Assembly (NCBI RefSeq): GCF_950295315.1
Contig: NC_080166.1
Span: 104,873,693-104,937,692, forward strand
Length of the DNA stretch: 64,000 nt
Source: Erinaceus europaeus
Lineage: Eukaryota; Chordata; Mammalia; Eulipotyphla; Erinaceidae
Reading direction: 5' to 3'
This document shows positions 9,601 to 64,000 of the stretch, one piece after another. Position 1 is the first letter of the stretch; the number at the start of each line of letters is the position of its first letter. The position numbers and the translations under genes were made by a program. The notes beneath the pieces are model-generated. The model saw nothing but the letters and a program-made list of their open reading frames with translations, was not told the DNA's origin and searched no databases.

Positions 9601-9632
9601 TTTTATAGTGAGACAAGCAGATTAAGAATATA

Positions 9633-9785
9633 GTCTGGGAGGTGGCACAGCGGATAAGGCATTAGACTCTCAAGCATGAGGTCCTAAATTCAATTACTGG
9701 CAGCACATGTACCAGAGTCATGCCTGGTTCTTTCTCTCTCTCCTATCATTTCTCATGAATCAATAATAAAATCTAAAAGAGAAAA
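9633..9785 (+). repeat. tRNA-like SINE (type D)
   Basis: The head 'ggtggcacagcggataagg' leads to B-box-like 'aaattcaattactgg', 'cagcacatgtaccagagtc' and the tail 'aatcaataataaaatct'. It provides the template for recognising the LTR-interrupted copy at 60722-61415. Confidence 0.8.
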
Positions 9786-10110: not shown

Positions 10111-10139
10111 ATGGAAGAGAGAGCATAATGATTCTTCTT

Positions 10140-11105
10140 CTAGCGTTTGCCCTTCTTCCGTAGCTAGTCAACAGCGTCAGGTTGAGCCTGATGTAAAGTT
10201 TCGAGACCTCCTTTGAATCTGGAGAGGTGGCAGTCGTTGACTATGTGGGTCATTGTCTGTAGCCGCAGGGGCAGTTCGGGTCATCTCTGACTCCCCAGCG
10301 GTGGAACATAGCGGCGCACCGGCCATGGCCTGTTCGATAGCGATCGAGGAGGGCCCAATCATAATGTGCTAGGTCAAAGCCGGGTTGACGCTTGCAGGGG
10401 TCTGTGATGAGGTGTTTGTTCTTTACCTCAGCTGACTACCAACTCTGTTTCCAAGAGTCTGGAACAGAGAAGTTCAGTGTAGGCGTAGGGGACCAGATTG
10501 GATGACGAGACGTCAAGCGTTGGACAGGGTGGGCGAAGATATCTGCGTATATTGGCAGGTCCAGTCGAGCGTAGACGTGGGAAATGAACTTAGATGATGC
10601 CGCATCCCGATGAATATCTGGCGGGGCGATGTTGCTAAGAACTGGCAGCCATGGAACCGGGGTGGAACGGATGGTTCCAAAAATTATCCTCATGGAGGAA
10701 TATAATTTGGAATCGACCAAGTGGACATGGGGGCTACGGAACCATACTGGGGCACAGTATTCTGCAGTGGAATAGCATAATGCCAGAGATGATGATCGTA
10801 GTGTGGAAGCACTCGCGCCCCATGAGGAGCTGGCCAGTCTTGCAATGATGTGATTCCTTGCGCCCACCTTTGCTGCAGTTTTTATGAGATGTTCCTGAAA
10901 TGACAGGGTGTGATCTAGAGTAACGCCAAGATAGACTGGCTGGGCTTCATGCCGGATTCTTGTATCGCCAAGCTGCACATTAAGCTCACGCGAGGCCGAG
11001 GCATGGTGTAGATGGAAAACAGATGATACCGTTTTTGCAGTGCTAGGGATTAGTTGCCATTTTTTACAGTAGTCAGATATCAGAGACATGTCTTTCGTGA
11101 GTGTT
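10140..11105 (-). pseudogene. Reverse transcriptase C-terminal pseudogene of a non-L1 LINE
   Basis: Reading the minus strand, the frame opens before 'MSLISDYCKKWQL' (11089) and continues unbroken for 217 codons. It includes the post-catalytic RT motif 'YLGVTLDHTLSFQEHL', then 'YSTAEYCAPVW' and 'STPVPWLPVLSNIAPP'. These are hallmark segments of the thumb and C-terminal region in Jockey-like RTs. The catalytic FADD box would lie upstream and is absent because of truncation. After a TAG at 10436-10438 the same frame continues with 'HYDWALLDRYRTGHGRC' and a Cys-rich 'CPCG'. A frameshift near 10250-10262 moves the following 'HIVNDC' into another frame. A second in-frame TAG lies at 10164-10166 and the terminal TAG at 10140-10142. 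Only three lesions in about 320 codons suggests moderate age. Confidence 0.85.
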
Positions 11106-11121
11106 TCACGAAAGACATGTC
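11085..11121. repeat. 16-bp perfect inverted repeat at LINE 5' junction
   Basis: The arms 11085-11100 and 11106-11121 are perfect reverse complements around a 5-bp spacer. One arm is LINE coding sequence. The other appears to be an inverted copy made at the 5' junction. The next bases repeat 'gtcatacctgatg', which recurs at about 11149 in the SINE. Confidence 0.9.
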
Positions 11122-11296
11122 ATACCTGATGACATTATGCAAAAAGACTGTCATACCTGATGTTCCAGGGTCCTGTTTCTGTTCCCTACATCATCCTAAG
11201 CCATAGCTGAGCAGTGTTCTGGTTAAAAATAAAAAAGAAGAAATACAAAAACATAGAATTAGTTTAAGATAATTATCATTTACTAAGGATCCTCTG

Positions 11297-17456: not shown

Positions 17457-17612
17457 TGAGGCAGGGGTAGATAGCATAATGGTTATGCAAACAGACTGTC
17501 ATGCCTGAGACTCAGAAGTCACAGGTTCAATCCCCAGCACCACCATAATCCAGAGTTGATCAATGCTCTGGTAAAATAATAATAATAATAAACAATAATA
17601 ATACAATAAAAA
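17457..17612 (+). repeat. SINE type C, complete
   Basis: A clear copy: 'gtagatagcataatggttat', 'gactgtcatgcctgagac', B-box 'caggttcaatccccagcacc', then (AAT)n. It is the reference for the type C SINE split at 10111-11240. Confidence 0.85.
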
Positions 17613-29714: not shown

Positions 29715-30616
29715 ATCTTTTTTTATTTCTTTATTGGGTAATTAATGTTTTACATTCAACAGTAAATATAATAGTTTGTAATGCATGATATTCCCCAGTT
29801 TCCCATATAACAATACAAAGCCCACTAGGTCCTCTGTCATCCTTCTTGGACCTGTATTCTCCCCAGCCACCCACCCCAGAGTCTTTTACTTTGTTGCGAT
29901 ACGCCAATTCCATTTCAGGTTCTACTTGTGCTTTTTTTTTTTTTTCTGATCTTGTTTTTCAACTTCTGCCTGAGAGTGAGATCATCCTATATTCATCCTT
30001 CTGTTTCTGACTTATTTCACTTAACATGAATTTGTCAAGGTCCATCCACGATCGGCTGAAAACAGTAAAGTCACCATTTTTTACAGCTGAGTAGTATTCC
30101 ATTGTGTATATATACCACAACTTGCTCAGCCACTCATCTGTTGTTGGACACCTGGGTTGCTTCCAGGTTTTGGCTATTACAAATTGTGCTGCCAAGAACA
30201 TATGTGTACACAGATCTTTTTGGATGGATATGTTGAGTTCCTTAGGATATATCCCCAGGAGAGGAATTGCAGGATCACTGGGTCGGTCCGTTTCTAGCCT
30301 TCTGAGAATTCTCCAGACTGTTCTCCACAGAGGTTGGACCAATTTACATTCCCACCAGCAGTGCAGTAGGGTTCCTTTGATCCCGCACCCTCTCCAGCAT
30401 TTGCTGCTGTTACTTACCTTTTCTGATGTATGACATTCTCACAGGAGTGAAGTGGTATCTTGTTGTCTTTATTTGCATTTCTCTGACAATCAAAGACTTG
30501 GAGCATTTTTTCATGTGTTTCTCTGCCTTTTGGATCTCTTCTGTGGTGAATATTCTGTCCATGTGCTCCCCCCATTTTTGGATGGGGTTATTTGTTGTCT
30601 TGTTGTTTAGTTTGAT
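29715..30616 (-). mobile_element. Young L1 3' end, second 3' UTR lineage
   Basis: Minus-strand L1: ORF2 C-terminus (29956-30616), a T-rich interruption near 29930, then a 3' UTR containing the antisense of 'caaagtaaaagactctgg' and 'aacattaattacccaataaa'. Near-identical 'atctttttttattt' and 'atcttttttatttt' at the two ends may be the target duplication. Well preserved. Confidence 0.9.
29956..30616 (-). pseudogene. L1 ORF2 C-terminal fragment
   Basis: Open over at least 127 codons up to the stop at about 29959, with '[16 protein letters not shown]', '[11 protein letters not shown]', '[16 protein letters not shown]' and '[15 protein letters not shown]'. The upstream frame also carries the conserved 'CWWECKL' stretch. 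A 4-bp duplication (gtaagtaa on the minus strand, about 30412) breaks the frame further upstream. The reverse transcriptase and endonuclease domains are missing through 5' truncation. Confidence 0.9.
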
Positions 30617-38103: not shown

Positions 38104-38494
38104 TTTAGAATTGGGGGTGCTGGTAAGATTTAGAATTTTCACCCTCTTGAGAGAGACGCCCTGTAGAGGGGTCAGAACAGATAGTCACATTTAAAGATTC
38201 TAATAAATCTCTGCCCAATAGGTTAGTGCTGATGTCAGCGATCAAAGGGCGGAAAAGTCCGGTAGTCCCATCAGGATCTTCCCAAACAAGTGGGTCTTGG
38301 GTCTGAAAGGCCTGTGTAAGGCCACCCACCCCATGAAGTCTAGGTCCAGGGAGGAGATTCCAGTGCCTGGGCACCTCCTTCTGTCTTAAAATAGTTCTGT
38401 CAGCTCCGGTATCAATCAGACATTTAAAAGGTTTTTTGTCAGTCAGGAGTGTCATAATTGGGTGACCTCGTTCAATAACAGGGGTAGTCCACAA
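38102..38494 (-). pseudogene. Endogenous retroviral protease (pro), open but orphaned
   Basis: An aspartic protease of betaretroviral type. The active-site triplet lies in 'CLIDTGADRTIL' and the flap-side and C-terminal 'ADISTNLLGRDLL' has the GRD(L) helix motif typical of retropepsins. The frame is open upstream of 38494 and stops at 38102-38104. Pol begins in the -1 frame relative to pro, as in betaretroviruses. The active-site Asp-Thr-Gly is intact, but with the provirus truncated on both sides no polyprotein can be made. Confidence 0.88.
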
Positions 38495-38974
38495 TACTTC
38501 TGGCTCTGGACTAGCACCTACCCTTTCCAGCTGGCTATCTTTATCCTGGGTCCTCTTGTGGACTGGGTCCTCTCCCCTATGCTCAGCAGGGAGCAGTGCA
38601 GGGGGCAGCGGACAGGTTCCCTGGCTGGATGGAGGCGTGATATCTATATTTCCGTATCTTTCCCTCTTTCAGGGGCTAAGGGTTGCCCCAAATCTAGTTT
38701 AAATCTTTGTCAAAGTCTGGTAAAGGTGTGCCATCTTTATGCGTTTTAGAACGACAATTAAGTATATGTTTTAAGTTGTGATCATTACTATTAGTTGCTG
38801 ATAACTCCAGGGCCCCAAGACTGTATCCTTGGAAACATCTTCCTTGGATAAGCTGTTTGTTTCTGCAAGCTGCATTTTAAAGTTCAGATAAAGTTGAAGA
38901 ACTGGGGGGTCAGGGAGAAATGACGGTAAGATTCGGAAATTTATTATTTTGTGATTTTTATAAATGAATTCAAA

Positions 38975-41935: not shown

Positions 41936-43288
41936 TGCTGAATTTATAATTTTCCATATTTCATAGATAATGTTGAGACTGAGTTTTCTTAAATCATCTC
42001 ATCAAGGTTATATAAATCAGGTAACTTGAAAGGAGACCGAACCAGTGAGTCCAAGTAACTACAGAGAAAATTTTAACTACTAAATGCCATTCAAAGGAAG
42101 AGACACTATTCATTAGTCCTGGGAAGTAAATTGGAAATTCAATAGTTTTCCTTCTTTCCTTCATTTGGTCTTAAAAAAATATTCAGAGTGGAGGGATTTT
42201 GTGTTAAGTATCAGAAAGGTCTATGAGCCTGGTGGAACCAATGAGAGAAATAAATAACTATTTTCTTTAGCTACAGACTAAACTTAGGAGGTTATCTACA
42301 TGTGTGGTTGCTTTCATTGTTTTTTTGAGTGTAAAAACGTTATGAGTAATACATGTATTAACAATGCCTAAACATTTCAGATGTGTCTGTTGATTTTGGG
42401 AGATAGATTTAAAGAGAATTCAATCCTTATGAGACAAATGAAAAGACAACTCAAAGTAAATTAGATTAACATAATCTGAAAATGATTATTACTTGGTTGT
42501 AAATATTATTCTAGCATGGCTCAAGCACTAATAGCCCTTTTATTTGACTTACGAATAAACAACTTCATTCATAACATTTTAAAAGATGTTTCTTTTGTTT
42601 TCTGTGGTAACAAAGCCTTAAAGTTATGGGCTCTATAAATAAAGATGCAGACAAGATCAAAGCTAATTTTGCTTTTGTCTCTCCATAGGTATTTTTAAAA
42701 GAGACTCCATCAGTCAAAACATACATTCTTTCCTTTCCTTTGTTCAAGCCATTCTCATAATAAACCTATCCTCCAGCTATTTTCCATGCTCTTACTGTAC
42801 TCACTGTTACTGATTATATATAATGGCATGCTGATGCCTATATTTAACCCTCCTACTGTTCATTGTTAAAATTAATCATTATGGTACCTGATCACATTTC
42901 ATATCTTTGCATGTTTGAAGCTAGCTGAACAAAGACAGCAGGCAAGTTCTGGATGTTATAAGACAGGAAAAGCATGTTTTAAAGCAACAGAGTCCCAATT
43001 ATGCTTAATCTAAGAAGAAAAAATAAAGATTCAAGAACAAGGTGTAATACCCTGCTTTGAAATTTGTCAAATCCTTGTCATTTATTTTGGAGAAATACAA
43101 AAGAATTGCTGCTGAATATTCTTTAACAGAAGCAAGCACACTTTGATTTACAAGATATTGCTCTCAAAATAGGAGAGACGATAATTTTTAATACTTGGAA
43201 AAGTGTATCAAGTGATAGAGAAGAAAGAACAAGTATTAATTAACACAAGGAGTGTTCCAGCTTACTTATTTATATTTCTTCAGGAAGT
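41936..43288. other. AT-rich unique sequence
   Basis: About 1.35 kb. Nothing recognised. Confidence 0.5.
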
Positions 43289-43306
43289 AGAAAAGGTGTA
43301 ATAGGA

Positions 43307-43345
43307 GCTCCAGTGGCGCAATCGGCTAGTGAGCAGTACTTATAC
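43307..43345 (+). pseudogene. Retroposed tRNA-Ile(UAU) 5' half
   Basis: 38 bases from 'gctccagtggcgcaatcgg' through 'cagtacttata' match the 5' part of tRNA-Ile(UAU) with few differences: acceptor strand, D arm with A box, anticodon stem and TAT anticodon. It stops at position 37/38, the intron site of this tRNA, plus one base. Flanking 18-bp direct repeats (43289-43306 and 43346-43363, two mismatches) mark an insertion event. No T arm, B box or poly(A) is present, so it cannot be transcribed as a tRNA. Confidence 0.85.
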
Positions 43346-43854
43346 AGAAAGGGTGTAATGGGAGATGCATGAATTTAAGTGACTATATTGCCCTCTTTTA
43401 AAGAAAAATGGGAATGGTGGTTACTTGTATGTATCATCAATATTGTGAGGTTTCAGTACACATTTATTAAAATACTAATATCTTTTCATTATTTTAAATA
43501 TCTATATTCATTTAGATTTAAGTAAAGATGATTTGATAAGGTCTGCCACACATATGCAATGAGTTAAAAAGTTTTATACAAAAAATTAAAGTATACTTGA
43601 AAAAAGAAATTCTGTAACATCAATTGCTGAGAGACAGTATCAATCCTGCCAGATTGGACTCCTTATTTTAATTTTCCAGATCCCATCAGACAGATTCGCA
43701 ATCTATATATCTTCCCACAAACACATGTGTATACATATGTATCTATGCATATATATGTGTGAATCTGCACACAGAAATGCATTCTTTCTTTTTTTATCTT
43801 TTTGCATTGCTAAAAGATTGTGCGCATTCAGTATTGTTGGACTATTTATCACCC

Positions 43855-43900
43855 ATGTTATTATATATATAGAATATATATATATATACATATATAGTTA
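43855..43900. repeat. TA-rich simple repeat
   Basis: Interrupted TA runs. Similar 'atatatgtgtg' sequence lies near 43745. Confidence 0.8.
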
Positions 43901-44106
43901 ATACACAGAAGCTCTAAGAATAACTTCTGATAAATAATTTCAAGTTACACTAGAAAGCATTTATTAAAATTATATTCTGGCATAAGAGGAGTTAGTCATT
44001 CCTAGGTTGGATACATTTTTCACATATGAGGCCCTTAATTCAGACCCTGACATCCCACATGATCAAGAGGCATACTGAGTTCTGTCTCTTAGAAAATCTC
44101 TGTCTC

Positions 44107-44463
44107 CGGGTAGGGCGGTGGGGCAGTGGGTTAAGCGCACGTGGCACAAAGTGCAGGGACCGGCGTAAGGATCCCGGTTCGAGCCCCCGGCTCCCCACCT
44201 GCAGGGGAGTCGCTTCACGGGCGGTGAAGCAGGTCTGCAGGTGTTTATCTTTCTCTCCCCCTCTCTCTCTGTCTTCCACTCCTCTCTCCATTTCTCTCTG
44301 TCCTATCCAACAATGAATTGCGTCAACAAGGGCAATAATTATAACCACAACGAAGCTACAACAAGGGCAACAAAAGGGGGGAAAATGGCCTCCAGGAGCG
44401 GTGGATTCATGGTGCAGGCACTGAGCCCAGCAATAACCCTGGAGGAAAAAAAAAGAAAAGAAA
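44107..44463 (+). repeat. SINE type A, full length, near-consensus
   Basis: Probably the youngest SINE here. It has a CpG-bearing head ('ttaagcgcacgtggcacaaa'), an intact Pol III B box 'ggttcgagccc', the body 'ccccacctgcaggggagtcg' and the complete 3' extension 'gcggtggattcatggtgcag'. A perfect 16-bp duplication 'agaaaatctctgtctc' lies at 44091-44106 and 44464-44479. Retained CpGs and a perfect duplication indicate little decay. Confidence 0.95.
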
Positions 44464-60721: not shown

Positions 60722-61415
60722 ATAGTCTGAGACATAGCACAATGGATAAAGCATTGGACTCTCAACCATGAGGTCCAGAGTTCAATCCCCAGCAGCACAT
60801 GTACTGTGGGTATATGGCAGGTCAAGCAGGGCTGACACCCTATCATCTCTCTGGGACCCAAAAATGTCTCCCTGCCCCCCCCCCTTCTCCTCAGCTGGAT
60901 TGCCAGCATTCTGCACCTGGCCCATGGCAGGAGCTGTTTACCCAAAACTGCTACACAGATTATAGTAAAATTTCCATTTCCTGCAGACAAAAGGGTGTGA
61001 AATTCCTCAGTAGTTTAATTATTAAGATTGCATCAGCCCCAGCCAGTCCCTGATAAAACCACAACTTCCTTTCCCAGTTTATTCCAGCTTCATGATATTG
61101 ACCTATACAATGATTGGTCCAACCATACTCCCTTTTTGCCACCTGCTTATTACAGTATAACAATACCTCCGTGTAAGCCAATAAACACACTACCCCCGGC
61201 CATAGTTTCCAAATTGGTCACTCTGCGTGCTCACCCCCCACCACCGCCTGTTCTCCTGCTCCCCTAGGACACTTCTCCGGTGGCCAACAGATTGGTGGGT
61301 GTGGGGTAGTCAAGACAGGCCGTCCAGGGCTTGCCCTACAATGTATCAGAGTGATGTCTGTGTCTCTCTCCTCCTATCATCCTTATTAATAAATAAATAA
61401 GTAAAATCTAAAAAA
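60722..61415 (+). repeat. SINE type D split by a solo LTR
   Basis: The left part (60722-60804) runs 'agcacaatggataaagcatt' to 'agcagcacatgtac'. The right part (61341-61415) resumes 'atgtatcagagtgatgtctg' and ends in AATAAATAAATAAG. The intact type D copy at 9633-9785 reads straight across ('cacatgtaccagagtc'). Confidence 0.88.
60805..61340 (+). mobile_element. Solo ERV LTR, about 536 bp
   Basis: TGTGGG...CCTACA ends. The 6-bp duplications 'atgtac' (60799-60804) and 'atgtat' (61341-61346) differ by one base. AATAAA occurs in 'aagccaataaacacac' near 61180. A poly-C run lies near 60875. Short open frames inside it are not viral genes. Confidence 0.9.
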
Positions 61416-63102: not shown

Positions 63103-63342
63103 ACTGGGAGTCGGACAGTAGCGCAGCAGGTTAAGCACATGTGGCACAAAGCACAAGGACCTGTCAGGATCCTGGTTCAAGCCCCCGGCTCCCCACCTGC
63201 AGGGGTGTTGCTTCACAGGTGCTGAAGCAGGTCTGCAGGTGTCACTCTGTCTCTCTTCCTCTCTATCTCCCCCTTCTCTATCAATTTATTTCGGTCTCTA
63301 TCCAATAATAAATAAATAAAGTTTTTTTTTTAAAAAAAAAGA
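63103..63342 (+). repeat. Hybrid SINE: type A head and body, type B tail
   Basis: The head 'gggagtcggacagtagcgca' and 'gcccccggctccccacctgc' are type A. The end 'cggtctctatccaataataa' with AATAAATAAA is type B. 'gaaagtaaaa' occurs on both sides (about 63091 and 63341), marking one insertion. Confidence 0.85.
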
Positions 63343-63504
63343 AAGTAAAACCAAATGCAGAGCTTTTGACAGTCACTCAAAATGGAAACTATGAGGTGGA
63401 AAATTCTGGCTGGAAGCAAAGAGACGGAAGGATGTTTTCTGCAATCTCAGTGCTTGAAACTTGCCACAAGTACACGATGAGCATCTCATCTCCCCCAACC
63501 AGTC

Positions 63505-64000
63505 CCTGGGTACCCATACTTCTTAAGCTTTTCCATAAGATTGAAGAAACAGGAATACTCCCTTCCACCTTCTATGAAGCCAACATCACCCTGATACCAA
63601 AAGCTGATAGGGACAGAACAAAAAAGGAAAACTACAAACCAATATCTCTGATGAACATAGATGCCAAAATATTAAACAAGATCTTGGCCAACCGGATACA
63701 GCAACATATCAAAAAGATTGTTCATCACGACCAAGTGGGATTCATCCCAGGAATGCAAGGCTGGTTCAACATCCGTAAGTCAAGCAATGTCATTCACCAC
63801 ATCAATAAAAGCAAAGCCAAAAACCACATGATTATCTCAATATATGCAGAGAAAGCCTTTGCCAAAATCCAACACCCATTCATGCTCAAAACTCTACAAA
63901 AATGGGAATAGATGGGAAATTCCTCATGATAGTGGAGTCTATATATAGCAAACCTACAGCTAACATCATACTCAATGGACAGACGCTGAAAGCATTCCCC
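63505..64000 (+). pseudogene. L1 ORF2 reverse transcriptase fragment, runs off window
   Basis: L1 RT fingers/palm region: '[18 protein letters not shown]', '[12 protein letters not shown]', '[19 protein letters not shown]' and '[19 protein letters not shown]'. Motif A reads '[12 protein letters not shown]', where the family normally has an Asp at both the Y and the second A position, so the first catalytic Asp is lost. A one-base loss in the A run at about 63897 shifts the frame before '[14 protein letters not shown]'. The element is 5'-truncated near 63505 and continues beyond 64000. Confidence 0.9.

Follow-up and report, generated by a model that had tools for sequence, protein, structure and literature searches.

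A 5'-truncated LINE copy, probably of the Vingi clade, interrupts a SINE and keeps its 5' joining scar in a hedgehog-like genome

The window analyzed here is a single 64-kb stretch of DNA, whose minus strand carries, at 10131-11121, the final ~321 codons of a reverse transcriptase from a non-L1 LINE. The window holds one copy of this element, its coding block carries two stop codons and one frameshift, and it lies between the remnants of a SINE. The features are given below, with P0122 denoting the closest database protein.

10118..10133, plus strand: left remnant of the interrupted SINE (empty-site alignment)
10134..11105, minus strand: LINE ORF2 copy truncated at its 5' end, retaining the C-terminal region of the reverse transcriptase and the natural 3' end (95-97% match to P0122; CpG o/e)
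10134..10139, minus strand: short AAG-repeat tail, directly past the stop (read from the sequence)
10140..10142, minus strand: natural ORF stop codon (P0122 ends one residue before)
10164..10166, minus strand: second in-frame stop (TAG)
about 10253..10259, minus strand: frameshift (tblastn alignment switches frame here)
10436..10438, minus strand: first in-frame stop (TAG)
10439..11119, minus strand: longest open stretch, 227 codons, of which the first ~10 lie inside the fold-back
11085..11121, no strand: fold-back palindrome at the element's 5' end (opposite-strand self-match, 37 bases, 86.5%)
11118..11131, plus strand: 14-bp copy of the flanking SINE, templated filler (read from the sequence)
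11134..11240, plus strand: right remnant of the interrupted SINE (self-match and empty-site alignment)
17469..17585, plus strand: second, uninterrupted copy of the same SINE (self-match and empty-site alignment)

The stop-to-stop frame at 10436-11119 (minus strand) encodes 227 amino acids; since its first residues sit in the 5' fold-back, about 217 of its codons belong to the real element. A sequence-only reading of this DNA had described a C-terminal non-L1 reverse transcriptase on the minus strand with 217 open codons, and two nonsense codons and one frameshift over about 320 codons; the frame and the P0122 alignment confirm the description, and we found the same counts. The 3' end of the copy is a natural one: the C-terminus of the block frame is that of P0122 (...LRKKGKR), the AAG-repeat tail may extend to 10131, where it is indistinguishable from target sequence, and host sequence begins right after the tail.

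The block (10131-11121) has a CpG o/e of 0.748 and a GC content of 0.507, the remainder of the window 0.155 and 0.36, and among 253 sliding windows the four with the highest CpG o/e all overlap the block. Outside the block, CpG o/e is highest at 43251-44400 (0.486 in the sliding window starting at 43251), where a CpG-rich, apparently tRNA-like SINE near 44100-44300 may represent a younger SINE family. Judged by eye, a 187-codon open frame at 38108-38668 (minus strand) containing LIDTGADRT resembles an aspartic protease of the retroviral type, as encoded by an endogenous retrovirus, and the frames at 63312-63908 (plus strand, 199 codons) and 29962-30438 (minus strand, 159 codons) are L1 ORF2-like. 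Neither Rfam nor a tRNA scan gave a match anywhere in the window.

When the left flank (to 10130) and the right flank (from 11134) are rejoined, the reconstructed empty site can be aligned to 17469-17585, the one further copy of the interrupted SINE in the window, with no gap where the flanks meet and 86 of 117 bases identical (74%, E 5e-13). Left of the join the match covers 13 bases of SINE only (12 of 13 identical), which is short but falls exactly at the expected place. Because the rejoined flanks align gap-free to the second copy, the SINE predates the LINE insertion, which bears out the earlier proposal that the block interrupts the SINE and is hence the younger of the two. We take the interrupted repeat to be the hedgehog-type 'type C SINE', and it is on this SINE sequence that the presumed hedgehog host is based. 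No ordinary target-site duplication was found at the insertion, the longest candidate being at most 3 bp (ATT). Another SINE occurs at 9630-9712 and 60722-60804, the two copies being 81% identical over 83 bases.

The 5' junction preserves a scar in two parts. The fold-back consists of 16-bp arms at 11085-11100 and 11106-11121 separated by a 5-base loop, and the sequence TGTCATACCTGATG at 11118-11131, read directly, repeats SINE bases 11149-11162. The fold-back and the 14-bp repeat are together as expected for the joining of an aborted cDNA end, and we infer that such an end served as its own primer, and next primed on the target, before being joined. Insertion would then have begun with the ORF2 protein (AP-type endonuclease and reverse transcriptase, no RNase H) nicking the resident SINE, after which target-primed reverse transcription would presumably have copied the element RNA from its 3' end until cDNA synthesis halted at a length of about 1 kb. 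The cDNA end left free would have formed a fold-back and been extended on itself; microhomology would then have let it copy a short run of the SINE nearby before it was joined to the target, perhaps by polymerase-theta-like end joining or by template jumping of the reverse transcriptase.

The closest relative, P0122, is a protein of 582 amino acids encoded on a 2072-bp metagenome contig from ENA. It is 96.6% identical to the block over 321 comparable residues, stops excluded, whereas the second-closest of the 105 rows compared reaches 55.8%; tblastn of P0122 against the block matched 273 of 288 residues in frame -1 and 38 of 39 in frame -3. The two share the same C-terminus, but P0122 has no stops in the shared part and contains more of the reverse transcriptase domain. 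Residues 1-20 of P0122 match the antisense of the element's 3' region at 10498-10557 (plus strand) of the window (15 of 20, E 0.002), so a fragment of a related copy, diverged and in inverted orientation, seems to precede the main one on the contig.

Within the shared frame, 12 of 285 codons differ between the block and P0122, which amounts to slight decay; the 12 include the first stop but neither the second stop nor the frameshift. Read by eye, 5 of the 12 codons fit CpG transitions on the block side, one (R to H, residue 406) is consistent with such a transition in P0122, and the other 6 do not fit. The 5 of 12 compare with a crude expectation of 6.9% (p about 8e-4), a test that assumes the share of transitions and takes ancestral codons from a single relative, P0122. 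The copy has decayed after insertion, largely through CpG loss, and the pattern fits a copy that aged in a methylated vertebrate genome.

Further relatives came from protein searches. With the 227-aa piece as query, the first search covered proteins up to ~400 aa and returned 297 at E <= 0.001 among 474 candidates; the best 120 of the 297 showed local identities of 39-64%, and the only organisms named among the matches listed were Trachemys (turtle), Synaphobranchus (eel), and Cirrhinus (carp). A second search, which admitted longer candidates, returned 200 proteins among 1216 candidates; among the matches listed (best 120 of 200), P0122 stood out at 96% over the scored part, and the named longer relatives came from Cordylochernes, Phlebotomus, Uroleucon, and Nilaparvata. 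A third search, for which the C-terminal 143 residues of P0122 served as query, gave 4 relatives from 5 candidates, 50-66% identical, none of them near-identical.

Of 244 database proteins retrieved, 112 were aligned with the window copy; 109 of these 113 rows covered at least 200 residues in the window-copy columns, and 105 were left after removal of identical rows, the carp row having fallen below the coverage cut. The resulting quick tree was midpoint rooted, with SH-aLRT support only, no outgroup of known clade, and no reference clades. The window copy and P0122 pair at SH-aLRT 100 on a bare branch of 0.58. A 24-row group (SH-aLRT 99) that excludes the window copy contains all 8 arthropod-labelled rows and two unlabelled Cordylochernes rows (P0191 and P0192), and the other 81 rows comprise the window copy, P0122, turtle, eel, and 77 unlabelled proteins. 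Because most rows lack a known host and there is no outgroup of known clade, the tree names no donor. Identity to the block is 52% for turtle, 49% for eel, and 41-46% for the named arthropods; the turtle protein (P0016, an uncharacterized protein of Trachemys scripta elegans) belongs to the same family, with its 52% measured over 321 residues, but sits on a separate, weakly placed branch.

Searches for relatives at the DNA level confirmed none: pattern searches of viral contigs matched 0, 15, and 2 stretches, those of GTDB genome contigs matched 31 and 55, and E. coli genomes gave no match. Plasmids gave 238 records, the best 20 of 238 all below 60% identity, and were rejected as relatives, the annotated ones among the matches listed being group II intron reverse transcriptases.

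As to family, Pfam had no match to the 227-aa piece or to two short peptides (one out of frame), and the block frame reaches its natural end without one; PDB gave one match only (E 0.99), and NCBIfam distant matches only, far below cut-offs. When five family proteins were run against the window by tblastn (E 0.01), they matched the block and, at 22-36%, the reverse transcriptase core only of the L1-like frame at 63312-63908. Membership in L1 was rejected, as none of the five matched the L1-like C-terminal frame at 29962-30438; the earlier statement that the element lies outside the usual active mammalian LINEs is supported. The full-length relatives P0128 and P0132, each 54% identical to the window copy, carry Exo_endo_phos and RVT_1 in one ORF, a 5' part that the window copy lacks, and no RNase H was detected at E <= 0.01 in the four proteins scanned, two of them full length (P0128 and P0132).

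Vingi elements encode an AP-type endonuclease and a reverse transcriptase and lack RNase H, in this last point differing from Ingi. To our knowledge, Vingi-1_EE has many young copies in the hedgehog and none in the other mammals sampled; we take Vingi-1_AAl to be a second hedgehog Vingi name, and the host of each of the two names is our assumption. Both are likened to the block by description, not by sequence identity: they are non-LTR elements with endonuclease and reverse transcriptase and no RNase H, an architecture found in the block's relatives, and they are young and belong to a genome with hedgehog-type SINEs. The 2011 abstract of Kojima, Kapitonov and Jurka is said to describe the clade as lacking RNase H, and their paper reportedly implies transfer without excluding vertical descent and finds Vingi in no other sequenced mammal. 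In the available portions of the papers citing that work, Vingi is reported from hedgehogs (Kojima, Kapitonov and Jurka 2011, as cited in PMC5753468 and PMC3183009), from reptiles and as a trace in human (PMC5753468), and from locust (PMC3391268), and 311 hedgehog copies of Vingi-1N3_EE diverged by less than 1% are tabulated in PMC3183009. Since the relatives' architecture without RNase H fits and Vingi is reported in hedgehogs, the block is very probably a dead, 5'-truncated Vingi-clade copy, most plausibly Vingi-1_EE or its Atelerix counterpart, a name that we infer from these citing papers. That it belongs instead to another Jockey/CR1-group clade new to mammals is improbable: the tree has no reference clades and the family was set beside named clades by description only, which leaves some room for such a placement, but Vingi is the one unusual LINE that the available text of PMC5753468 and PMC3183009 reports from hedgehogs, and the architecture fits it. 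The element had been proposed as unreported, whereas hedgehog Vingi is already in print in those same two papers.

How a probable Vingi came to lie in this genome is the remaining question. Contamination by foreign DNA, or chimerism of the assembly, is next to negligible as an explanation; the composition of the block is sharply unlike that of its flanks, as contamination would have it, but the clean SINE empty site, the 14 bp of flanking SINE copied into the junction, and the CpG-type lesions led us to reject it. The earlier argument that the SINE flanks speak against contamination holds, and the clean empty site supports an integrated copy. The same reading had proposed acquisition through a tick, taking YLGVTLD and AEYCAPVW as typical of invertebrates; neither is an arthropod marker, because both occur in the eel and carp proteins and YLGVTLD also in the turtle protein, and we rejected an arthropod origin inferred from them. 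On wider grounds as well, it is very unlikely that a tick or some other arthropod parasite passed on the element recently. Related elements do exist in a pseudoscorpion, a sandfly, an aphid, and a planthopper, Vingi in locust (PMC3391268, available portion) keeps an insect source possible, and most rows on the window-copy side of the tree, being without a known host, leave room for an invertebrate one. The named arthropod relatives are nevertheless only 41-46% identical and group apart, with turtle and eel falling on the window-copy side, and no tick appears by name among the matches listed.

That hedgehogs inherited Vingi vertically from early amniotes, with loss in other mammals and no recent transfer, has more in its favor but is still unlikely. 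Human traces of Vingi (PMC5753468), one human fossil counted as pre-amniote and older than the mammal/reptile split (PMC9004415, both in the portions available), and the 52% identical turtle relative on the window-copy side all suit it, but it requires very long activity in one mammalian line together with disappearance elsewhere, and the available text of PMC3183009 favors transfer. In that text, hedgehog Vingi is a likely horizontal transfer, common to several species; of the earlier proposal of horizontal acquisition, the transfer itself is already suggested in print and is not new, and its arthropod source is unsupported. A parallel within Eulipotyphla is RTE1_Sar of the common shrew, which in the accessible part of PMC6542046 is likewise argued to have been acquired horizontally, but which belongs to the RTE clade, is linked to nematodes, and had no significant matches in hedgehog reads. 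As background, less than 3% of the transfers detected in a survey of 307 vertebrate genomes fell in mammals and birds, according to the portion available of PMC7070016.

The single copy is most likely ordinary in itself, with the LINE clade in hedgehogs, its recent expansion there, and the idea of its transfer all already in print. One copy matters little: it is a clean example, probably of Vingi, in a hedgehog-like genome, dated after its SINE, and its value lies in its well-preserved 5' joining scar. The question it touches is the source of hedgehog Vingi, and here P0122 is of interest. There is a slim chance that P0122 belongs to an animal that is not a hedgehog, such as a parasite, a prey species, or another vertebrate, in which case a 96.6% identical Vingi would exist in two distant hosts; this would indicate a donor or a further recipient, and the suspected transfer could then be tested. 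Knowing the host of P0122 would thus provide a direct test of the published suggestion of horizontal transfer.
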